Positions 1,431 through 20,384 of a stretch of 29,837 nucleotides of DNA are shown one piece after another. The position numbers and the translations under genes were made by a program. How positions within the stretch are numbered: the first letter of the stretch is position 1; each line of letters starts with the position of its first letter. The notes below the pieces were generated by a model. The model had not been told where the DNA came from. It made no database searches and was given only the letters and a program-made list of their open reading frames with translations. The stretch is taken from IMG/VR virus record IMGVR_UViG_3300025118_000092, positions 1 through 29,837 of that record; one strand, written 5' to 3'. This DNA is from a virus.

Positions 1431-1649
1431 CTAATTTCCCCTCGTTAGTGAGTTCCGGCGGGCTATCTTTTTGGCTCGCCGTTTTCTTTCTGATTCTTTT
1501 TCATAGAATCTTCTTTCACGGTATTCCTTCAAAACACCAGATTCTTCAACAACCTTTCTAAACTTAGAAATCAATTGGGTTGTATTTTGATTCTTTTTCT
1601 TATCTACCCCAATCGGTTTTGGGTGGAACACTATTGGTTCTTTAGTCAT
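1431..1649 (-). CDS. rpsU: Phage-encoded ribosomal protein bS21 homologue
   Basis: 72 aa from the ATG at 1649. The core matches bS21: FRKVVEESGVLKEYRERRF followed by YEKESERKRRAKK and a basic tail, as in bacterial S21 (FKRSCEKAGVLAE..RRREFYEKP..RKRAK). bS21 sits on the 30S platform near the anti-Shine-Dalgarno helix and helps mRNA initiation. The frame stays open upstream to a TTG at 1730 that overlaps the previous gene's stop and would add 27 residues (start of MAIINKS). I prefer 1649 because it has AAGGA just upstream and fits normal S21 length, though the spacing is short. It is the last gene of the leftward arm and converges on the rightward terminator. Phage S21 genes are known in some phages; the functional proposal here is inference. 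Confidence 0.82.
   Translation of the reverse strand: MTKEPIVFHPKPIGVDKKKNQNTTQLISKFRKVVEESGVLKEYRERRFYEKESERKRRAKKIARRNSLTRGN
1456..1485 (+). terminator. Rho-independent terminator of the rightward arm
   Basis: An 8-bp GC-rich stem (CGGCGGGC at 1456-1463, GCTCGCCG at 1474-1481, one G-U pair) with a 10-nt loop is followed by TTTTC. It lies 30 bases past the last rightward stop and inside the 3' end of the convergent S21-like gene. The other strand lacks a T tract, so it acts mainly on rightward transcripts. Confidence 0.7.
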
Positions 1650-1720
1650 AATTCCTTTCTTAATGATCATATAGACCGCTATAAAGCCTTCTAATCCGCC
1701 GAATACGGGACTTTTATTTA

Positions 1721-2173
1721 TTATTGCCAATAAGTATCGTCTATTTTACTAAAATTCCACATAGGTATATGCACCACTGGTTCGCCATCATACCCATCTC
1801 TATTATTATGCCTTTCCATCCACCTAATCTGATAAATGTTTGAAGGCTGTTGATCTGATATTGTACATACATAATCACCATCCGTGAACCTAACCGCCAA
1901 TTCAAAAGGTACACCCAAAGACTTTGATAACGCTTGTCCGTTGAGAATCTTTTTTAAGCTGATAATATAGGTATCATATTGGTCATGCCTATTATTTCTT
2001 TGTTTTAACTCCATAAAACGCATCGGCCTATTATAGTTATTTAGCATTAAATAATCTAAACTGTATTGCGGGGGAAGTTTCTTAGGACTTTCTCCATTAC
2101 TGTTAGATATTGTTTCTATAAAGCGTTCTTCATTCGCTATATCCTCACTTGTTTCAAATCGTGGTCTGGCCAT
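1721..2173 (-). CDS. Putative PD-(D/E)XK nuclease-fold protein
   Basis: 150 aa. It contains SLDYLML and, after a short loop, RFMELKQR, the D...ExK pattern of the PD-(D/E)XK superfamily (active-site strand-turn-strand), with a Glu-containing N-terminal helix (NEERFIETI) as a possible first motif. The next segment, YDTYIISLKKI, fits the helix that follows the core. It overlaps the helicase gene by 20 bases, so both come from one leftward transcript. Recombination or DNA-end processing, or resolution of replication intermediates, would suit the position. Fold assignment is by motif only; a non-catalytic role is possible. Confidence 0.5.
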   Translation of the reverse strand: MARPRFETSEDIANEERFIETISNSNGESPKKLPPQYSLDYLMLNNYNRPMRFMELKQRNNRHDQYDTYIISLKKILNGQALSKSLGVPFELAVRFTDGDYVCTISDQQPSNIYQIRWMERHNNRDGYDGEPVVHIPMWNFSKIDDTYWQ

Positions 2174-3518
2174 CTAAATCCAACCTTTCTTTTATTATTT
2201 CTGATTTTTTTTGTTCGTGGTTTTCAGCAGACTTTAGGTCATCGAATAGCTTACAACTATCACCCGAATAACCTACTTCCACCGTACCTGTTGTACCATA
2301 TCTATTCTTAGATACAACTAACTGTATTTCATTTTTTGTCCACACCCTATTATTAGAATCTGGTTCACCATATCTTGATATGTATGGATAGTATACAAAT
2401 GACACTATCTCAGCGTCTTGCTCCAAGTTCCCCGATTCCGCTAAATCTGATAACCTTGGAACCGCATCAATCCTATGTTCTATATTCCTGTTCAACTGTG
2501 AAACTAAAATAATACATATTTCTTCTCCTTTCGCCAACCATTTATATTGTTTTGTAGTGTCACCAATCTTATGTCTTAAATCCCTTCTATCATTAAACGG
2601 ATACTCTATTAGACCTACATGATCATCTATCACTACATCGGGCTGAACCCTACGTATTTCGTGAAACGTATCGGGTATGTTTCTAATATTATCATACATA
2701 AATAACTTGTCTTGATAGTTTTCTGCTATGTAATCCATAGCTTTATTAACACTACTTCTATCATTAACAACCCCATGCCTAAGCCCGCGATAAGATATAT
2801 CATCAGATTCCATAGCTATAAACTTTTTCATCATTTCAGTATTCGGCATTTCCCTGTTAAACATCATCACTTTTAAACCCTTATTCACGAGACTTCTTGC
2901 TATATTCGCTGCTACTGTAGTCTTCCCATGTGATGGTCTACCTGCTATAATTGTTATCTCTCCCCGCGTCATCCCTTGCACAACACCATCGAGTTTATTG
3001 ATTCCTGTGTTAATAATCCCCTTTCGGTTGAATATAGATTCATGTGTTTCTTCAAGTGCTGTCTCTAAATTGAACCCTTCCGAGGGTTTCAAACTTATCA
3101 AATTTCCGACCAAGTTGTGAAAGTCGTTTAAGGTAGCGTCTATATCCCTAGTATTATCTTCGGTTAGCCTACTTATTTCTGCGGAATAATCTGTTAATCT
3201 CCGCCGAATCCAATGGTCATGTAACATCTTTGCGTATTCTTCCGCTCGGGATGGCGTTACTTCCCCAGTAGCTATTGACACTATTTCATAGTTAAGATTG
3301 TTATAAACTTGCCCTTTTTGAGGGAAGTTATGGGCAACGGAGATGGCGTCAATTGTTTCCCCATCTTCATCTAACCTAACCATCGTTTCCCATATCTTCT
3401 TATGGAAATCAAAATAGAATACGTCAGGTTCATCTATCCATCTTCTGACTAAATCCATATTTTGAGGTTTCATTAATAAAGCCCCCAATAGGGCTTTTTC
3501 TGTTGATTCGCTATGCAA
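2154..3518 (-). CDS. dnaB: DnaB-type replicative DNA helicase
   Basis: 454 aa, normal DnaB length. The N-terminal primase-interaction domain (about 1-105, starting with the ESTEKALLGALL helix) is followed by a linker and a RecA-like motor. Walker A is GRPSHGKT (193-200), a catalytic Glu lies in NREMP (221-225), Walker B is VVIDD (295-299), and SQLNR (340-344) with RLSDLAESGNLEQDA is the typical DnaB sensor/finger region. It should unwind the fork as a hexamer. The start is TTG at 3518, overlapping the mom stop by 8 bases, with GGG nine bases upstream. The downstream PD-(D/E)XK gene overlaps its end. Confidence 0.95.
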   Translation of the reverse strand: MHSESTEKALLGALLMKPQNMDLVRRWIDEPDVFYFDFHKKIWETMVRLDEDGETIDAISVAHNFPQKGQVYNNLNYEIVSIATGEVTPSRAEEYAKMLHDHWIRRRLTDYSAEISRLTEDNTRDIDATLNDFHNLVGNLISLKPSEGFNLETALEETHESIFNRKGIINTGINKLDGVVQGMTRGEITIIAGRPSHGKTTVAANIARSLVNKGLKVMMFNREMPNTEMMKKFIAMESDDISYRGLRHGVVNDRSSVNKAMDYIAENYQDKLFMYDNIRNIPDTFHEIRRVQPDVVIDDHVGLIEYPFNDRRDLRHKIGDTTKQYKWLAKGEEICIILVSQLNRNIEHRIDAVPRLSDLAESGNLEQDAEIVSFVYYPYISRYGEPDSNNRVWTKNEIQLVVSKNRYGTTGTVEVGYSGDSCKLFDDLKSAENHEQKKSEIIKERLDLDGQTTI

Positions 3519-4248
3519 GTGTATTACCCTGCCTTTCTAATCCTTCGTTGTAGTGTTTTGGATATGGCTTTTCCTCTAACAAGCACTTGGGCTTCCATCG
3601 CTTGTCTATAAACTTTATGTACCTAAACTGTCTTAAATTCATTCTTATAGCATTAACCTTATTCTCTTGCAACTCTTTAGTTCTGCCGGAATATCTTTTT
3701 GTACCGGGCTTAACTGTCATTTGTATATTATGGAATACTTCATTATCATATTCCCAGAATACGCTCTTGTGTTCCCCATAGAACGAGAATGAGCAAGCTT
3801 GATATACTATTCCTAAACCACCGCATCTTTCATCCGCAAAAGACTGTATCCACCTAACTTTAGGGAATTTCTTTTTTATATATTTTATACTATAGCTAAT
3901 GGCCATGCTCTCGCTGTTTCTAACGGCCATATCATGTAGCCACATTCTATTTAATTCTAAATACTGATCTAATTCCGTGCCCTCCACTACACTTCCGCAT
4001 GACGCGGGGTTCATGGCATATCCATACTGCAAAACACCGATAAACTTTTCATCGATAAAAACTCCTAAATGTATATATGTAGCATTGTATATTTTGCCAG
4101 AATAATGATTTTTTATTATTGTTTTGTTTGCCAATCCCCTATCTATTTCTTTTATGTAAAAGTTATCTTTCCCGAACCCAATTACCTCTTTTTCGCCGAA
4201 CAGTGCTTGTTGGTCACTATATATATACCCTTTTTCTATTTTATCCAA
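3511..4248 (-). CDS. mom: Mom-like DNA-modification acyltransferase (GNAT fold)
   Basis: 245 aa. The central region has Mom-family features: KNHYSGK (46-52), a GNAT-like core with HLGVFIDEKFIGVLQYG (60-76), LELNRMWLHD (98-107), and SFADERCGGLGIVYQA (136-151) followed by FYGEH, closely like the SFAD...G..YQA...Y.G block of phage Mu Mom. Mom changes adenine in DNA to a carbamoylmethyl-type derivative and blocks many restriction enzymes. The start is TTG at 4248, directly after the stop of the upstream gene, with no clear SD, so translation is probably coupled. The C-terminal 70 residues (KPGTKRYSGRTKEL onward) are basic and could bind DNA. It sits next to the helicase, suggesting modification during replication. 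The exact modified base is inference. Confidence 0.85.
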   Translation of the reverse strand: MDKIEKGYIYSDQQALFGEKEVIGFGKDNFYIKEIDRGLANKTIIKNHYSGKIYNATYIHLGVFIDEKFIGVLQYGYAMNPASCGSVVEGTELDQYLELNRMWLHDMAVRNSESMAISYSIKYIKKKFPKVRWIQSFADERCGGLGIVYQACSFSFYGEHKSVFWEYDNEVFHNIQMTVKPGTKRYSGRTKELQENKVNAIRMNLRQFRYIKFIDKRWKPKCLLEEKPYPKHYNEGLERQGNTLA

Positions 4249-7849: not shown

Positions 7850-8449
7850 TTATTCTCCTTCTTTTATTTTTTCTATTTTTCTAAATACAGCATTCATATC
7901 GGTTCTTATTATTTCTCCATTGTTTACGCTGTTCATTATCTTGTTTTTCCATCCATCATCCAGACCATCCATTTTCTCCGCCAATTCAGCAACATCATCT
8001 TCACTTAAAGACAAGTCCTGTTTCCTATACACATCGTCAGCTATATTGCATAGCCTGTTGATAGCCCTTTTGAATCCATTTGTATTAGCACTCGCTAAGT
8101 TTTTGTCTATGTCAATTACATTCTCAGGTGTGTGCGGTAGGTTCCTTTTGAACTGTATCCTCGCAGCCCCCGGCGAAAAGAACCTTCGCACTACACCTTC
8201 ATCCTCCACAACTAACTCACCAGACACGATAGCCCATTCTGAGCCTAAGAATTGTACAGGCTGTTCACCTGCGGGCTTCCAAGACCATACTGGGTAATTC
8301 TTGTTTAATTCATTTCGCATATACGCTTCATCTACATAATCAAATCCATCTGGTCTTGATTTGACTTGACCTTTAGGCGTAGTCCTTTGAGATATTTCCC
8401 TATGCTTATTAATCAAATCTATGTTTTCTACTTTTACTATTTTAGACAT
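7850..8449 (-). CDS. Rad52/Sak-like single-strand annealing protein
   Basis: 199 aa. The N-terminal 140 residues follow the Rad52/Sak pattern: YVDEAYMRNELNK, then W.W strands (VWSWKP), EWAIVSGELVVEDEGV and the helix ASANTNGFKRAINRLC, equivalent to the A.T.A.KRA...LG helix of this family, followed by DDVYRK. The C-terminal 55 residues are helical and charged. Such proteins anneal complementary strands coated with SSB. The gene lies between the exonuclease and SSB genes, one base from each, which strongly supports a recombination module. Confidence 0.7.
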   Translation of the reverse strand: MSKIVKVENIDLINKHREISQRTTPKGQVKSRPDGFDYVDEAYMRNELNKNYPVWSWKPAGEQPVQFLGSEWAIVSGELVVEDEGVVRRFFSPGAARIQFKRNLPHTPENVIDIDKNLASANTNGFKRAINRLCNIADDVYRKQDLSLSEDDVAELAEKMDGLDDGWKNKIMNSVNNGEIIRTDMNAVFRKIEKIKEGE

Positions 8450-9319
8450 TTATTCTCCTACGTATGGACACATACTACGAACATCGCAGTATTGCTCACA
8501 CTTTTTACCGCCCCAGTTTTCTTCTTCCGTGCAAGCCGAGGGCGTGGTTTTAATTTCAAGGTGGTGCAACAAAGCATCCCTTTTTTCTGTGAATTTTCTT
8601 TCTATATGATCGTTATGTATGTACGGTACTTCAACCAAGTAAATCTTTCTGTCGATTCCCCTATCTCGGGCCATCTGTATGCCACCATCCCGAACCGTAA
8701 TCTGTATATACATATTGTCAACTTCTTTGCCAGCTTTTTCAAGCATGTATCTATAGCAATTCAATTGCCATCCCCAATCACCAAAATCTGCCTTTTCTTC
8801 ATCTATATAAAATTGCTTAAGTTTACGCACCGTTCCTGCCAACCCCCATTTTGTCTTTCGCTTATAAACCGCTCCCGTAGGATCGTCTCCAAAGAAGTGT
8901 TGTATCCCCAAAACTTGCGCTACTTTATATGAACCAGAGTTCTTATAATCTATCAACGATTTAGACTCCTCATCGTACAAGTCGGCAATACCTGTGATAC
9001 CAAGACTTTCCATAAATATTTCTGCATACTCTTCTTCCGCACTCTCTTCTAATTTCTTATGGTGCAGAGTCCCCGCTAATGCGAATGCATGCTCTTGTGG
9101 GTCTATAAAATAGTCTTTTGTTCTCTTCAAGTATGCTTCACAAGTCCCAGATAAACACTCTGTCACCGATGGCTTTCTATCGGGGTCTCTTTGCTTTGAT
9201 AATTCTTTAAGCATGGGAATAGTTATCCCCATTCTCACCATATCTAATTTCCCATTTTCGAATACGTCTTCAAATAATATCTCTTCCCCATCTGGGTATT
9301 TAAATCCTATTGCACTCAT
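8450..9319 (-). CDS. Cas4/RecB-like PD-(D/E)XK exonuclease, probable Fe-S protein
   Basis: 289 aa. Motifs in order: GTLHHKK (83-89), GIADLYD (110-116), LIDYKNS (122-128; D...DxK active site) and WGWQLNCYRYM, the QxxxY motif of RecB-type nucleases. Cys55/Cys60 near the N-terminus and Cys274, Cys278, Cys284 at the C-terminus match the split four-Cys iron-sulfur clasp of Cas4/AddB nucleases. It would resect DNA ends for the neighbouring annealing protein. It is first of its three-gene operon; GAAGGAATTTAT precedes the ATG. Confidence 0.82.
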   Translation of the reverse strand: MSAIGFKYPDGEEILFEDVFENGKLDMVRMGITIPMLKELSKQRDPDRKPSVTECLSGTCEAYLKRTKDYFIDPQEHAFALAGTLHHKKLEESAEEEYAEIFMESLGITGIADLYDEESKSLIDYKNSGSYKVAQVLGIQHFFGDDPTGAVYKRKTKWGLAGTVRKLKQFYIDEEKADFGDWGWQLNCYRYMLEKAGKEVDNMYIQITVRDGGIQMARDRGIDRKIYLVEVPYIHNDHIERKFTEKRDALLHHLEIKTTPSACTEEENWGGKKCEQYCDVRSMCPYVGE

Positions 9320-9460: not shown

Positions 9461-9483
9461 TTATATATATATATATATATTAT
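9461..9483. repeat. (TA)n run at the end of amidoligase 1
   Basis: About ten alternating TA units lie right at the stop of the amidoligase gene (stop at 9480). The run is self-complementary and could slip or melt easily. There is no GC stem, so I do not call it a terminator. Confidence 0.6.
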
Positions 9484-10775
9484 ATAGTTATATAATTATT
9501 TACTTCTCTCTCTTCTGTATTTACTTCCAATCCACTAAACTTATTTATTCTTCTAAGTATATAATTATCTATACTCTCTAATTCGAGAATTTCAATAAAC
9601 TCCGGTAAAGTTAATTTGCTATTTTTCTTAAGAAATTCTAATAGCTTGCTCTCCGTACCATCTTCCAAATGTTTCCCAAGTTTTGCTCCCTTTTCCACCA
9701 ATGATTGACATATTGTAATCCAATTCTTTATCTTTTCTGGGTTGGTAGTGCCAGAGTGGTGTCTAAATTCTATTGTCCCTAAGTATACTCGTGAATGCAT
9801 ATTGATACCGTGATATCTGGAATCATTGTATTTGTCATTATTTTGGCGAGAATCAGAACCATTATACCAAGAGTCGATAAAGTCTCGGTTGCTTTGTATG
9901 ATAAATAATCTTTTTGAGGGTATGGGGGTCTTTCTACACCAATTAGACTTGCTTCGGGAAGCTGGCATCATTGAATACATTATATCTTCGCAAGCATTAC
10001 CCAAAAGCATTATACCAGTAAGCTCGGGCCAATATAAATCTCTTGCATCTATATGAAGATGATACCCACAGCTTCTATTGACAGAAAATGAATTGTTATG
10101 AAGCCAATCTGTTATTTTGTCTACCTCTTCAAATAATTGATCCCCTATCATGGGTTTTGATATAAATTCAACACCTTCTCCGCTGATACTACCATCTGAA
10201 GTATGTGAAAAGTTCGCATTACATTCATCTGCAATATCTTGTGCAGAACCATCCCCGCAGAAAACGGTTTCAAGCTCTATTCCACAAGCTCTATCAAACC
10301 TATTCTTTTTAAGCCCATTTGGTTCTGGTGTAGGTACATTACAACCCCTATAAGTCCTATAAGAGTTAAAGTCTACCGATCCACATTCATCGTAGCAATT
10401 CTCGCATATACACTCACCATCCGACGTATAAGATTCGTCAATAAATAGTTCAGAACCGCAATCTTCACAGATAGTGTATACATCATAATAACATAATTCG
10501 CAATAGGGGTCTCCGCAATCATTGTTAAATATATCATCACTCTTTTCTGCGCATCCACAATTAGTACAATAATCGTGGTCTTCAGTAAAACAATCTGGGC
10601 AATATGCCTCACCTCCCCCTGTTGAACAGATATAATCTATATGAACATTATCCCCACATATACTGCAAGGCATAGCTACTGAGTCTAGACATTCTTTACA
10701 CAACAATCCTGCTCTATCCTGAACTTCGAAAAGTTTATTGGCCTTTTTCTCACAATGTTCGCAACGTTTTTTCAT
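9480..10775 (-). CDS. Amidoligase 1 with N-terminal zinc-ribbon array
   Basis: 431 aa. Residues 1-135 are an array of CxxC knuckles (C5/C8, C26/C29, C37/C40, C59/C62, C70/C73, C92/C95, C103/C106, C124/C127), about four treble-clef or zinc-ribbon repeats. From about 160 comes a glutamine-synthetase-like amidoligase: GIELET (165-170), SDGSISGEGVEF (193-204), CGYHLHID (236-243) and TIEFRHHSGT (334-343). The Glu/His/Arg residues there fit the ATP- and metal-binding strands of phage 'putative amidoligase' proteins. It should join a carboxylate to an amine using ATP; the substrate is unknown. It forms an island with a glutamine amidotransferase and a second amidoligase of similar make-up. GGAG precedes the ATG. 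Confidence 0.85.
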   Translation of the reverse strand: MKKRCEHCEKKANKLFEVQDRAGLLCKECLDSVAMPCSICGDNVHIDYICSTGGGEAYCPDCFTEDHDYCTNCGCAEKSDDIFNNDCGDPYCELCYYDVYTICEDCGSELFIDESYTSDGECICENCYDECGSVDFNSYRTYRGCNVPTPEPNGLKKNRFDRACGIELETVFCGDGSAQDIADECNANFSHTSDGSISGEGVEFISKPMIGDQLFEEVDKITDWLHNNSFSVNRSCGYHLHIDARDLYWPELTGIMLLGNACEDIMYSMMPASRSKSNWCRKTPIPSKRLFIIQSNRDFIDSWYNGSDSRQNNDKYNDSRYHGINMHSRVYLGTIEFRHHSGTTNPEKIKNWITICQSLVEKGAKLGKHLEDGTESKLLEFLKKNSKLTLPEFIEILELESIDNYILRRINKFSGLEVNTEEREVNNYITI

Positions 10776-10784
10776 TTTCTACTC

Positions 10785-11078
10785 CTAAGATATGCCATAA
10801 TTGGCTATTACTAAGTATGCCAAAAGCATGTTAAACTCTTTAATCCACCCAATATTCTTTAGTGCATTGTAAAGCTCTACTTCGCTTTCAGCTTGTATTT
10901 CAATCCCTTCAAGGTCTTTAACCTGATCTTTTATGTGTTCCATAAATTCTTCAAATGTCTTTTCACATATAAATGGATTCTTTTTAGCTCTTTTATATAG
11001 AGATTTAATCACATAACTTTTTGATTTTAACTTTATAGGTCTGTCTATACCTACAAGTATTGCCTTTTTCCGTTTCAT
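10785..11078 (-). CDS. Hypothetical protein inside the amidoligase island
   Basis: 97 aa. A basic N-terminus (KRKKAILVGI, KLKSKSYVIKSLYKRAKK) leads to two helices; the C-terminus is hydrophobic (FNMLLAYLVIANYG) and might pack into a partner. AGGAG lies seven bases before the ATG. It sits nine bases from amidoligase 1 and eight from the amidotransferase gene, so it is probably part of the same system. No family recognised. Confidence 0.65.
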   Translation of the reverse strand: MKRKKAILVGIDRPIKLKSKSYVIKSLYKRAKKNPFICEKTFEEFMEHIKDQVKDLEGIEIQAESEVELYNALKNIGWIKEFNMLLAYLVIANYGIS

Positions 11079-11086
11079 AGTTTCTC

Positions 11087-12262
11087 CTATACTGTCATTA
11101 GTGACTGGTTATGAGTTGTCCAGTCTCTTTCTGTTTTATCACAATAACTGCATATATCGTACCCATTGAACACCACAATTTCATTTTTCTCTAACCAATC
11201 TCCGCAGAAATCGCAAGATACACCATTCTCATCTGATGATGTTTTGGGAATCTGTACATCTTCTATACAATCAAAGCACTCATATCTGGTATCTTCGATT
11301 AAAACTAATTCATCATACCTTCTCCAATCCGAGCACTTTGAGCAACTACCGCCCCATTCTCCATCTCGGTCTAAGACGATACCATTTGTACGCTCACCGC
11401 AACAATTTGTGCATATTTTGTCAATACTCCAAGTGTCTTTATAACAATATACACATTTTGCTCTAGCGTGGGAATGGGAAGACCCATACCCAGTATAATT
11501 TTGTTTATTGTTATAAGCCCAATACCCAGAAACATTGGTCTGCACTTCCGTTATGTTTGGATTAGGGGAAGACCAAAATTCTCTTGTGTCAAAAGAGTAT
11601 ACTTTATCTGTTGGTACTTTCGCTATATCGATTTGCAAACCTGCATATTGTAAGGCATATCCCATAATCTGATGTGTTGATGCCCAAAATAAACAACGAG
11701 CTTTCTTCCAATATGCAACTACCAACGGCCTGCCTTTCTCGTGCAGAAGATTAAGGATATATGAATTTTCCTTGACCCAGCTAATGGCATAATCTCCATA
11801 TATTAAATCGAGCACATCTTGTATGTCATCTTTCTTATTGATGAGGCCAAATATGACTTCGGAGTCGACTTCAACTGACTTATTTATTTTCTTAGCGACT
11901 ATATCGTGATTCATTATAACCCCATTATGAGCCCCGATCACTTTTCCTATCGAAAACGGATGAGCGTTTCTAATGGATACTGTCCCATGTGTTGCGAATC
12001 TAACATGACCCATTGCAACAGTTGTATCTTTATCCACAGATCCCATTATTTCTTCCCAAGAATCATCGAGAATCAAGTCATCCGATGATTTTAATGTCTT
12101 ATACAGCGAGCTTCCCTCCCCAGACATTATAGAAATCCCAGTCGAATCTTGACCTCTAATGACGGATTCATCTGTCAGATTAGTGAAAACATCCTTAATC
12201 CTGTTCATTTGTGAATCAGATTGCCATCCTTCTCGTTTGGCAAAACCAAATATTCCACACAT
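11087..12262 (-). CDS. Class II glutamine amidotransferase with zinc ribbons
   Basis: 391 aa. Cys2 after the initiator Met is the N-terminal nucleophile (MCGIFGF); RGQDSTG (36-42), GHVRFATHG (85-93), AHNGVIMNH (111-119) and VDSE (132-135) are the glutamine-binding and catalytic motifs of class II (Ntn) glutaminase domains. The domain ends near 240. Residues 270-375 carry CxxC pairs at 270/273, 284/287, 307/310, 329/332, 350/353 and 371/374, three zinc ribbons like those in the flanking amidoligases. No synthetase domain is attached, so ammonia or a glutamyl group must go to a partner. AAGGAG gives a strong SD. The flanking amidoligases are the obvious partners; that link is inferred from order and shared zinc modules. 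Confidence 0.88.
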   Translation of the reverse strand: MCGIFGFAKREGWQSDSQMNRIKDVFTNLTDESVIRGQDSTGISIMSGEGSSLYKTLKSSDDLILDDSWEEIMGSVDKDTTVAMGHVRFATHGTVSIRNAHPFSIGKVIGAHNGVIMNHDIVAKKINKSVEVDSEVIFGLINKKDDIQDVLDLIYGDYAISWVKENSYILNLLHEKGRPLVVAYWKKARCLFWASTHQIMGYALQYAGLQIDIAKVPTDKVYSFDTREFWSSPNPNITEVQTNVSGYWAYNNKQNYTGYGSSHSHARAKCVYCYKDTWSIDKICTNCCGERTNGIVLDRDGEWGGSCSKCSDWRRYDELVLIEDTRYECFDCIEDVQIPKTSSDENGVSCDFCGDWLEKNEIVVFNGYDICSYCDKTERDWTTHNQSLMTV

Positions 12263-12287
12263 TTATTTCTCCTTATCTTAGTTAACT

Positions 12288-12299
12288 GTTAATTTACGG
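12288..12299. repeat. Inverted copy of the 9428-9439 motif
   Basis: GTTAATTTACGG here is the exact reverse complement of 9428-9439; allowing one mismatch the match extends to 17 bases. It lies about 25 bases upstream of the amidotransferase ATG, in a 46-bp gap, next to a strong SD. It may be a shared operator, or chance in AT-rich DNA. Confidence 0.35.
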
Positions 12300-12308
12300 A
12301 AGAAGTTA

Positions 12309-13991
12309 TCATAACCTTCTAACAACATTAACAGTGGGGTTCCGCATCTCTTGAGAACCCCTTTTTCCCTTATATTCATCTATTCTTGAACTTAGGGGGT
12401 TGTACATCTCTATAATACCCATAACATCTAAGTAATCTTCGAGCTTTAGGTTATTATCTTCTAGAAACATATTCAATATTTTCTTATCTTTTGTGAGTAA
12501 ATTTTTACCGAAATCTGTTATAGCTAAACAAAACTTAGTCCATTCAAATATTCTATTTGGATCTCTAGACCCTTCGTGATATCTATATTCAATCGTTCCC
12601 ATATAGAATCTCGAATGTACATTTAAACCTCTATATCTTGATTCATTATATTTACTATCTGATGCCTGCGTTTTACCCATCTCTTCATACCAAAATTTGC
12701 ATAATTCTCCCGCAGAAACAATCTTTAATAAATCTTTACTTTTAAAATCAGCCATTCTTTTAGAATATCTTTCAAATTCTCTAGATTGCGGAACCATCTG
12801 ATATATAAAATCTTCCAATTTTTTTACTGTAAGTATTATACCTTTCATTTCACTTACCCCTAAATCAAGAGCATTAGTGTGAACATGAACACCACAAGAA
12901 CCATCTGGTGATAGATTCATCTCCGATGCCCATTCGCAAGCATCCTTTATAGACTCCCCTATGTAATCTCCTATTTTCGGGGTCATAACCATCTCCACCC
13001 CACCTTCAGTCAAAGACCCATCGCTGACTATCCTCCAATCATTAGGCGGACAAAACTCTTCTACATCATCATCCTCATAACCTATAAGTTCTATTTCCAA
13101 AGATGCTGGTGTTTTGCTTTTATTCATCTCAAAGGAGTTCCCAGCATTATCTAAAAGCATCCTAGAAAGAAATTTGTCAGGTAACTTAGACGGAGGATTT
13201 GCCATATGACTCAAAGATACTCTGTCGTAGCATCGTAGACAATACCTACCTGCCCCGTGATAACCATCTGATGGGTTAGATACAGTTTCTTCATCGCATC
13301 CACTGCAAGTGAATACTTTCTGCTCAAAACATCTTGCACACCAAAAATTACGTCTGAAAATATATCTCGACATATGACTTATTGTGTAAGAATTATGACA
13401 GTCATAGCAAGTATAATTGGTTTCCTCCGCACAACTCCTGCAATAGCGATTGTAATTAGTTCCGTCAGTACTATAGAAATGATTATCAGCGGCGGCGTCT
13501 TCGCAGAGACCACAAATGTTTATCTGTCTATAAACAGATCTTAAACATGATCCAAATATCTTTACACAGTCTAATAATGTATCATCTGACAGTGGGTGCG
13601 ATAAATAATCAGTATGTGTTAACACCTGTGGGGTATAACTTTCCTCATACCCCGCAAATATGTCTCCAAATTCATAGTATTGTTCTTCTTTTTTTGAAAA
13701 TATAAGATCAGGAGCACCATCTATGGTTCTTATAATGTAGAAATAATCACCATACACAGAGTCCATGTCTAATATAGCTCCGCCTCTTATATCTCCCTTG
13801 TGCAAGGGCATAATAATAAATTCATATTTACTATATTTGCGAGTTATCGTATCATCAGTAATTATATTATATCTACGTATCCCCACATCACCGATTGATG
13901 TTATTTGTCCCCATCTGATCCCATCATCGTATCCTGCCCTAGGTGTTAATATAACCTTATCGCCTACTCTGGCTTTAACCCTTAAATTCAT
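12309..13991 (-). CDS. Amidoligase 2 with internal zinc-ribbon array
   Basis: 560 aa. Residues 1-130 are beta-rich, with an SH3-like look at the start (VKARVGDKVILTPRAGYDD). Residues 160-255 hold CxxC pairs at 160/163, 184/187, 195/198, 218/221, 229/232 and 251/254. The amidoligase domain follows: SLEIELIGYE (297-306), SDGSLTEGGVEM (323-334), CGVHVHTN (366-373) and GTIEYRYHEGS (465-475). These line up one for one with amidoligase 1, so the two are paralogues with different N-terminal extensions. It is translated first in the island; AAGGAG lies upstream, and a 36-residue membrane protein overlaps its start (ATGA). Confidence 0.85.
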   Translation of the reverse strand: MNLRVKARVGDKVILTPRAGYDDGIRWGQITSIGDVGIRRYNIITDDTITRKYSKYEFIIMPLHKGDIRGGAILDMDSVYGDYFYIIRTIDGAPDLIFSKKEEQYYEFGDIFAGYEESYTPQVLTHTDYLSHPLSDDTLLDCVKIFGSCLRSVYRQINICGLCEDAAADNHFYSTDGTNYNRYCRSCAEETNYTCYDCHNSYTISHMSRYIFRRNFWCARCFEQKVFTCSGCDEETVSNPSDGYHGAGRYCLRCYDRVSLSHMANPPSKLPDKFLSRMLLDNAGNSFEMNKSKTPASLEIELIGYEDDDVEEFCPPNDWRIVSDGSLTEGGVEMVMTPKIGDYIGESIKDACEWASEMNLSPDGSCGVHVHTNALDLGVSEMKGIILTVKKLEDFIYQMVPQSREFERYSKRMADFKSKDLLKIVSAGELCKFWYEEMGKTQASDSKYNESRYRGLNVHSRFYMGTIEYRYHEGSRDPNRIFEWTKFCLAITDFGKNLLTKDKKILNMFLEDNNLKLEDYLDVMGIIEMYNPLSSRIDEYKGKRGSQEMRNPTVNVVRRL

Positions 13992-14098
13992 AGTCTATTT
14001 CTCCTTATCGTTGTTATAAATGGGAATAATACTGGTAAAGCTATTGTTATAAAATCTATTATTAAGTGGAGTATACCACCTCCGTGAGGACATATCAT
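13988..14098 (-). CDS. 36-residue single-span membrane protein
   Basis: Reading from the ATG at 14098, which overlaps the upstream stop (ATGA) and has GGAGG seven bases before it, gives 36 residues: a short MICPHGGG start, a hydrophobic span LHLIIDFITIALPVLFPFI and a basic end TTIRRNRL. Its stop overlaps the amidoligase 2 ATG (ATGA). It may anchor or regulate the neighbouring system, or act as a small membrane-active protein. No family recognised. Confidence 0.6.
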   Translation of the reverse strand: MICPHGGGILHLIIDFITIALPVLFPFITTIRRNRL

Positions 14099-19809: not shown

Positions 19810-20026
19810 ATACATGATGACTGCTGTATGCGGTCATGATATAGACACTGAATGGTTTGAAAGTACCGAAGGGGAAATCATAATAAGGGACTTTGATTCT
19901 AAGGGTGATAGGATGGCTTCTTATTGCGTTGTTTGTAAGGATTGCTTGACCATGTATAGCGGAATAGAATTAGAACCTTCGGAAATAGAACCTTGGTTAG
20001 AAGGGACATTAGACTATGCGATCTGA
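19796..20026 (+). CDS. Small CxxC protein, paralogue of the previous gene
   Basis: 76 aa. CVVCKDC near residues 44-50 and an acidic C-terminal segment (ELEPSEIEPWLEG). Its architecture mirrors the preceding gene. In-frame ATGs at residues 3, 7 and 8 leave the start open. It overlaps both neighbours. Function unknown. Confidence 0.55.
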   Translation: MEMLEYMMTAVCGHDIDTEWFESTEGEIIIRDFDSKGDRMASYCVVCKDCLTMYSGIELEPSEIEPWLEGTLDYAI

Positions 20027-20384
20027 AAAATTAGCGGTATATGGGACATTAAGAAGGGGATCGGACAATAAAGGTGTAGTGGAAAATACTACGCTTGTAT
20101 ATCCCGGGCACACAAGGTTCCCCGCTGTAATTTATAATGAAAAAGGTAAAGGGACAATTGTAGAAGTTCTTGATGTTACCAAGGAAGATTTAAATACATA
20201 CGATATGTATGAAGGGGTCAAGTCTGGGATGTATAGACGTGTACGAACGAATGTAAAGATGGATGATGGGGGAAAAGAACGTGCTTGGTTGTATGTAGCG
20301 GGGGATTTATTGTTAGCCAATGAAACTGTGTTCGAGGTGATAGAAGGAGGTGATTGGAATAAGCGACAAGATAGAAATATTTAA
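20016..20384 (+). CDS. Gamma-glutamylcyclotransferase-like protein
   Basis: 122 aa. VYGTLRRG (8-15) is the family glycine-rich substrate loop; LNTYDMYEGV, GMYRRV and AWLYVAGD follow in the usual order of GGCT/AIG2-like folds. The catalytic Glu is probably the Glu of YDMYEGV. Family members cyclise gamma-glutamyl amines or peptides to 5-oxoproline plus free amine. AAGGGAC precedes the ATG. It sits between terminase subunits, but its chemistry could complement the amidoligases. Confidence 0.8.
   Translation: MRSEKLAVYGTLRRGSDNKGVVENTTLVYPGHTRFPAVIYNEKGKGTIVEVLDVTKEDLNTYDMYEGVKSGMYRRVRTNVKMDDGGKERAWLYVAGDLLLANETVFEVIEGGDWNKRQDRNI

Follow-up and report, generated by a model that had tools for sequence, protein, structure and literature searches.

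Gene cassettes that pair an amidoligase with a glutamine amidotransferase (GATase) are widespread in phages, and the substrates published for them are guesses. In the cellular enzymes GatCAB and PurLQS, a glutaminase and a kinase or ligase subunit are combined with a linking subunit of ~80-100 aa, and GatB has a glutamine-synthetase-like fold. In ergothioneine biosynthesis, the glutamine-synthetase-like gamma-glutamyl ligase EgtA is accompanied by EgtC, which is a stand-alone class II GATase. The glutaminase and ligase pair MurT/GatD amidates the glutamate of peptidoglycan (PMC3267633), and modification of the cell wall against superinfection has been suggested for phiEco32-type cassettes, without a test for any phage in either source (PMC5498523, citing earlier work; PMC10580990). 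Here we describe a related module in the window, by which we mean the whole 29.8-kb stretch analysed, IMG/VR virus record IMGVR_UViG_3300025118_000092 (29,837 nucleotides), which is probably a partial genome. As an earlier note on this DNA had claimed, open reading frames (ORFs) and Pfam matches place two paralogous amidoligases, AL1 and AL2, around a stand-alone glutaminase, GAT, at 9480-13991, and CxxC arrays are found at a different place in each protein (central in AL2, C-terminal in GAT and N-terminal in AL1). A small protein of 97 aa, g97, is encoded between GAT and AL1. We favour, at a probability of roughly 0.55, the reading that GAT, AL1, g97 and often AL2 form a glutamine-fed, ATP-dependent amide-forming complex of the phage.

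12309-13991, minus strand: AL2, amidoligase 2 (560 aa; Pfam PF12224, E=2.5e-20)
11087-12262, minus strand: GAT, class II N-terminal nucleophile (Ntn) glutaminase (391 aa; Pfam GATase_6, E=2.5e-13)
10785-11078, minus strand: g97, ORF of 97 aa between GAT and AL1
9480-10775, minus strand: AL1, amidoligase 1 (431 aa; Pfam PF12224, E=4.6e-24)
13230-13514, minus strand: predicted zinc array of AL2 (aa 160-254), three CxxC..CxxC units
11141-11455, minus strand: predicted zinc array of GAT (aa 270-374), three units
10395-10763, minus strand: predicted zinc array of AL1 (aa 5-127), four units, of which units 3 and 4 are conserved best

Against a curated cut-off of 22 bits, the amidoligases score 86.1 bits (AL1) and 73.8 bits (AL2) for PF12224 (Amidoligase_2). 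AL1 consists of its N-terminal zinc array and the PF12224 domain, and AL2 of an N-terminal ~140 aa of unassigned fold, the central array and a C-terminal PF12224 domain. The active-site-type residues (ExE, D, E, HxH, N and E/R) are invariant, namely E167/E169/D194/E203/H239/H241/N325/E336/R338 of AL1 and their equivalents in AL2. Similarly, GAT has invariant C2, R88, N113-G114 and D133, which are the nucleophile and glutamine-binding residues of class II glutaminases. Loss of such residues, which the earlier note had named as a way for its reading to fail, is not seen: conservation is at least 95% over 62 AL1, 45 AL2 and 64 GAT homologues, with AL2 values drawn from 28-45 orthologues depending on the analysis. 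An AlphaFold2 (AF2) model of AL1 (42 sequences, mean predicted local distance difference test score (pLDDT) 89), a single chain like all our models, has Foldseek matches to YbdK, glutamine synthetases and gamma-glutamylmethylamide synthetase, with LIM domains also among the matches. Thus AL1, the one amidoligase compared in this way, has a fold like those of glutamine synthetase and gamma-glutamylcysteine synthetase, matching YbdK-type 1tt4 at E=4.5e-5, with low TM-scores from a comparison of the whole chain including the zinc array.

The only parts found in GAT are a class II glutaminase domain (aa 1-230) and the C-terminal zinc array, and Pfam and profile scans detected no fused synthetase domain of the GlmS, PurF or AsnB type. 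A separate partner is therefore expected. Because GAT lacks a synthetase and the amidoligase has an ATP-ligase fold, use of glutamine-derived ammonia by the amidoligase would be the simplest chemistry. Perhaps the enzymes instead run a gamma-glutamylation cycle resembling that of ergothioneine synthesis, wherein the amidoligase would put a gamma-glutamyl group on an amine, GAT would remove the group rather than feed ammonia, and a gamma-glutamylamine cyclotransferase (GGACT) would do likewise by cyclisation. The folds nearest to AL1 are in keeping with such a cycle, as are the co-occurrence of a GGACT gene and a weak similarity of GAT to EgtC (E=1.6e-8, far below the curated cut-off). However, GAT is nearer to GlmS and PurF, whose glutaminase domains its profile matches, and the tight coupling of GAT with the amidoligase, the kinship of the zinc arrays and the presence of g97 as a link favour a complex over two opposed enzymes. 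We consider the cycle unlikely.

There are 73 IMG/VR loci that encode g97, recovered by a search with the g97 alignment, and in these the gene lies between GAT and AL1. In every locus where the relevant DNA is present, GAT is immediately upstream and AL1 immediately downstream. The gaps are tiny, with GAT and g97 mostly overlapping and g97 and AL1 separated by 1-13 nucleotides or, once, overlapping. Of 74 sets, the window counted, 54 have AL2 ahead of GAT and 19 lack AL2. The expectation that the genes travel together holds in all g97 loci, and also in the wider lineage found by an exonuclease search, wherein GAT and an amidoligase are present in each of the 56 loci that include 6 kb or more of upstream DNA. 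Thus, GAT with an amidoligase is the invariant part of the three-protein grouping originally proposed, and AL2, which is missing from 19 loci and hence dispensable, had been given too much weight. Vertical inheritance within one syntenic phage lineage probably explains part of this co-travel, because flanking families (exonuclease, Mgm101-like, DnaB and terminases) are common to most loci. One 80-kb contig, IMGVR_UViG_3300030708_000851 (L092, L131), carries two diverged GAT-g97-AL1 copies, and these may stem either from a genuine duplication or from the joining of two phages.

When GAT alone or the AL1/AL2 pair served as the query, just a near-identical contig and one relative were recovered, and an alignment of nine sequences proved too divergent to find loci with. 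A degenerate DNA motif derived from both amidoligases (YN[DE]xRYxGxNxH) yielded 68 stretches, and in this set zinc-bearing amidoligases have an adjacent GAT wherever the stretch extends far enough. A separate group of complete amidoligases without CxxC arrays (mostly 296-316 aa; L014-L016, L021, L026 and similar) has no GAT detected within the fetched stretch.

There are 32 loci in a sister state that lack g97, and in all 32 GAT directly overlaps an amidoligase carrying an N-terminal zinc array. The sister GATs are without the CxxC pair unit (30 have no CxxC and two have one), such that at least two CxxC motifs occur in 73 of 73 GATs from g97 loci versus 0 of 32 from g97-less loci. The zinc array on GAT, g97 and AL2 mark the branch of the window, and in the loci examined the zinc array on GAT is present precisely where g97 is. 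Because the core of GAT and amidoligase persists without g97 or AL2 in the sister lineage, GAT most likely serves the amidoligase, and these two proteins are likely the enzyme core. In a tree of amidoligase domains, AL2 forms one clade (support 83/94), AL1 and AL2 group together (94/91) and the sister amidoligases form one clade (100/99), with AL1 alone not resolved as a single clade. The simplest reading is one amidoligase duplication after the split from the sister lineage, since AL1 and AL2 group together apart from the sister clade. The 13 AL1 rows from loci without AL2 make one clade (99/94), which is consistent with one main loss of AL2. The problem is thereby narrowed to GAT and the amidoligase, two proteins kept across a diverse uncultured lineage, and the additions (zinc on GAT, g97 and a second amidoligase) are separable. 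This lineage is without a close cultured relative: the large terminase subunit (TerL) is about 25-27% identical to those of isolates, and phage records contain nothing that matches the exonuclease. A host could not be named from the exonuclease, for which one 35% partial match to an Acholeplasmataceae metagenome-assembled genome was too thin.

Sequence comparisons indicate that g97 is a new protein family, strictly linked to the module. There are no relatives in Pfam (including a comparison of 14 members with GatC), PHROGs, NCBIfam or PADLOC, and 50,697 phage records likewise contain none. None was found in 84,980 cellular genomes by a search that was seeded from conserved peptides and could have missed a distant relative. 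Sub-threshold matches to DUF5312, HU and others were scattered and weak and were dropped. The AF2 model of g97 (14-sequence alignment, mean pLDDT 76) has a beta-alpha-alpha-alpha-beta-alpha order with an uncertain C-terminal helix, and a fold search of the PDB with this model gave nothing convincing. Because two viral predicted proteins (86 and 79 aa) are moderately similar to it (E 6e-3 and 1e-2, with TM up to 0.82), the fold may occur elsewhere too. In phiEco32 and Aeromonas phage LAh_9 a small protein is encoded directly downstream of GAT (gp82, L235 26258-26491, and LAh9_62, L005 9664-9885, 33% identical to each other). It has no detectable homology to g97 and appears to be a positional analogue.

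Median pairwise ratios of nonsynonymous to synonymous substitution (dN/dS, Nei-Gojobori) are 0.13 for g97, 0.19 for GAT, 0.29 for AL1 and 0.39 for AL2, compared with 0.05 (TerL) to 0.10 (exonuclease) elsewhere in the phage, on the basis of 13-17 module pairs and only three TerL pairs. All four proteins are under purifying selection, which is strongest on g97 among the four and not above that on other core phage genes. The earlier note regarded the 97-residue gene as an extra embedded in the module, whereas its fixed place between GAT and AL1 and its status as the slowest-evolving of the four make it a core part.

Another possibility is that g97 is itself the substrate or carrier, with its C-terminus amidated or extended by the zinc-bearing ligases using glutamine nitrogen, in the manner of ubiquitin, Pup, LysW or a precursor peptide. 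Obligatory presence in its branch and the strongest constraint of the four would suit this role. So would the C-terminus, which has a constant length (17-20 aa past the W78 motif, where the motif matched) and ends in GV, IA, IS or IT in 57 of 60 cases. On the other hand, the sister lineage manages with GAT and an amidoligase alone, the C-terminus is hydrophobic, and a helix is predicted there at low confidence rather than a free tail. A tail anchor was also considered for this end and rejected, as hydropathy is 0.5-1.5 in the loci listed, with no clear membrane segment. We know of no PF12224 precedent for a carrier of this kind and consider the idea improbable, but if true it would represent a phage-encoded protein-modification system of a previously undescribed type. 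Whether linker or substrate, g97 offers a direct handle on the function of the enzymes.

The CxxC arrays are regular, consisting mostly of CxxC-x17..21-CxxC units with a shorter first pair in GAT. There are eight CxxC motifs in AL1 (mean 1.9 and maximum 7 in 5000 composition shuffles), six in GAT (mean 0.5, maximum 4) and six in AL2 (mean 0.6, maximum 5). Conservation among homologues is stronger evidence than these shuffles and rules out chance clustering of cysteines: C307/C310/C329/C332 of GAT, C70/C73/C92/C95/C103/C106/C124 of AL1 and nearly all CxxC cysteines of AL2 are at least 95% conserved across diverged homologues. Thus AL1 retains units 3 and 4 across orthologues, AL2 nearly all three, and GAT one (C307/C310 with C329/C332), which is invariant in g97-bearing loci. 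From this cysteine pattern the arrays are predicted to bind zinc. The AL1 and AL2 arrays look homologous (hhalign probability 96.6, E 5e-10), and the GAT array more weakly so (AL1 versus GAT, probability 87.7, E 3e-6, less sure given Cys-rich bias). The common scaffold or target proposed earlier from the shared zinc modules is therefore plausible as a shared interaction surface as far as the two amidoligases are concerned, with a weaker case for GAT. In addition, the arrays weakly resemble LIM modules, and that of GAT also B-box, in sequence and fold, and they may be protein-protein docking surfaces. In a LIM domain, two zinc fingers are ~2 residues apart and the second ligand pair contains a His. 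The arrays do not belong to this family, having CxxC-x7-CxxC between units and all-Cys ligands.

Zinc ribbons also frequently bind nucleic acid, and the module lies among replication genes. These facts raise the possibility that an amide is built on a DNA or RNA base, as does a gene for a Mom-family DNA-modification protein in the window (3511-4248, minus strand, PF25680, E=2.6e-67). However, none of the proteins from the other module loci, 47 of which extend that far, groups with the Mom protein. Mom is a sporadic gene here, present in the window only, and was rejected as a module component. Moreover, the weak likeness of the arrays is to protein-interaction modules rather than to nucleic-acid binders, and we regard a nucleic-acid substrate as highly improbable.

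Structural genes (terminase, portal and capsid) are on the plus strand of the window, and replication and recombination genes are on the minus strand, where the order of transcription is m36, AL2, GAT, g97, AL1, an exonuclease-like gene and then an Mgm101-like gene. The features outside the module proper are as follows.

13988-14098, minus strand: m36, small membrane protein (36 aa; ORF), overlapping the AL2 start
8450-9319, minus-strand block: PD-(D/E)XK exonuclease-like gene
7850-8449, minus-strand block: Mgm101-like gene (weak match)
20016-20384, plus strand: GGACT (AIG2-like), near the terminase genes (PF06094, E=5.4e-14)
1431-1730, minus strand: ribosomal protein bS21, encoded by the phage (PF01165, E=3.6e-11); loci L088 and L089 carry it too

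The embedding of m36 with the module, as first described, is true of the window, but relatives occur in only 14 of 74 loci, the window and its near-identical copy included (L082-L084, L091-L094, L097, L103, L136, L149-L151 and the window), and the gene is accessory. The members are small membrane proteins sharing the motif C(GE)PHG..H, and their genes precede AL2 or GAT. The module often has as a neighbour a gene of the Pyr_excise family (PF03013, pyrimidine-dimer glycosylase; match scored on the L088 copy), which lies upstream of GAT in L043, L050, L057 and L067. A role in anti-phage defence was set aside, there being no PADLOC match. The GGACT gene is present in 49 of the 55 g97 loci extending that far, and its product is likely a pathway partner of the module.

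The same enzyme classes, GGACT among them, occur in the cassettes for which cell-wall modification was proposed, and MurT/GatD provides a precedent for amidation. Perhaps, then, the peptidoglycan stem peptide of the host is amidated or extended, blocking superinfection. This claim concerns the substrate and is compatible with an amide-forming complex. We hold it to be possible but rather doubtful, as the proposal stands without a test, no envelope-targeting domain was found in the module, and the membrane protein m36 is confined to a minority of loci.

For the amide-forming complex that we prefer, we infer an activity and a division of labour as follows. GAT would hydrolyse glutamine via its N-terminal Cys2 nucleophile. 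AL1, with its glutamine-synthetase/gamma-glutamyl-ligase fold, would use ATP to activate a carboxylate, probably the gamma-carboxylate of a glutamyl group, and convert it to an amide with the ammonia set free by GAT (or with an amine). A dedicated small subunit, g97, would join GAT and AL1, much as GatC does for GatCAB and PurS for PurLQS, with further docking surfaces supplied by the zinc arrays. The exact coincidence of g97 with the zinc array on GAT fits a role of g97 in docking GAT to AL1. Where present, the duplicated ligase AL2 may serve a second acceptor or step, and GGACT, encoded apart, may trim gamma-glutamyl-amine products. Several observations weigh against this explanation. Compared with the rest of the phage's genes, those of AL1 and AL2 evolve rapidly, which is not typical of core metabolic enzymes, and the GGACT gene is on the opposite strand, beside the terminase genes. 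The correlation between zinc and g97 is essentially one lineage split, which counts as one event rather than 105 and cannot alone prove contact. The comparison with GatC and PurS is general knowledge, and no solved structure homologous to g97 was found. A class II GATase that stands alone may also be nothing more than a gamma-glutamyl hydrolase, as is EgtC.

Neither the 14-member comparison with GatC nor the fold search showed g97 to be homologous to GatC or PurS, and the glutaminases differ, since GatA belongs to the amidase family and PurQ to class I, whereas GAT is of the Ntn class II. EgtA and EgtC are accompanied by no g97 and carry no zinc arrays, and the remaining ergothioneine pathway is not seen here. 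Arthrobacter Laroyevirus (Salgado gp98-gp99) likewise has a minimal pair of neighbouring amidoligase and GATase genes, but in the opposite order, with CxxC in neither protein and no g97. The closest likeness is to podovirus cassettes of the phiEco32/LUZ24/CVT22 type, in which an amidoligase is next to or near a GATase, with GGACT in several, beside replication genes. In Citrobacter phage CVT22 (L008), many small ORFs around these genes end in LENE, perhaps reflecting ribosome-binding sites that overlap stop codons. In phiEco32 the classes are YtfP-type gp77, ATP-grasp gp80, GATase gp83, amidoligase-like gp84 and COOH-NH2 ligase-like gp86, those of gp84 and gp86 being assigned from sequence and position rather than from record names. 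The COOH-NH2 ligase type 2 and the usual ATP-grasp protein of such phages were not seen among the window proteins scanned, which exclude some small ORFs of what is probably a partial genome. The GATases of these cassettes often bear one or more C-terminal CxxC pairs, as does that of the window. However, the reference amidoligases examined, including those of phiEco32, have no CxxC array, and g97 is missing, whereas the amidoligase of the window is duplicated and zinc-bearing, with g97 fixed between GAT and AL1. The zinc-ribbon layout, once called unusual, is so only against cultured phages and is the rule within this lineage. With amidoligase, GATase and GGACT all present in the window, the module is a variation on the phage cassette type already known to pair an amidoligase with an amidotransferase, to which one new protein family is added.

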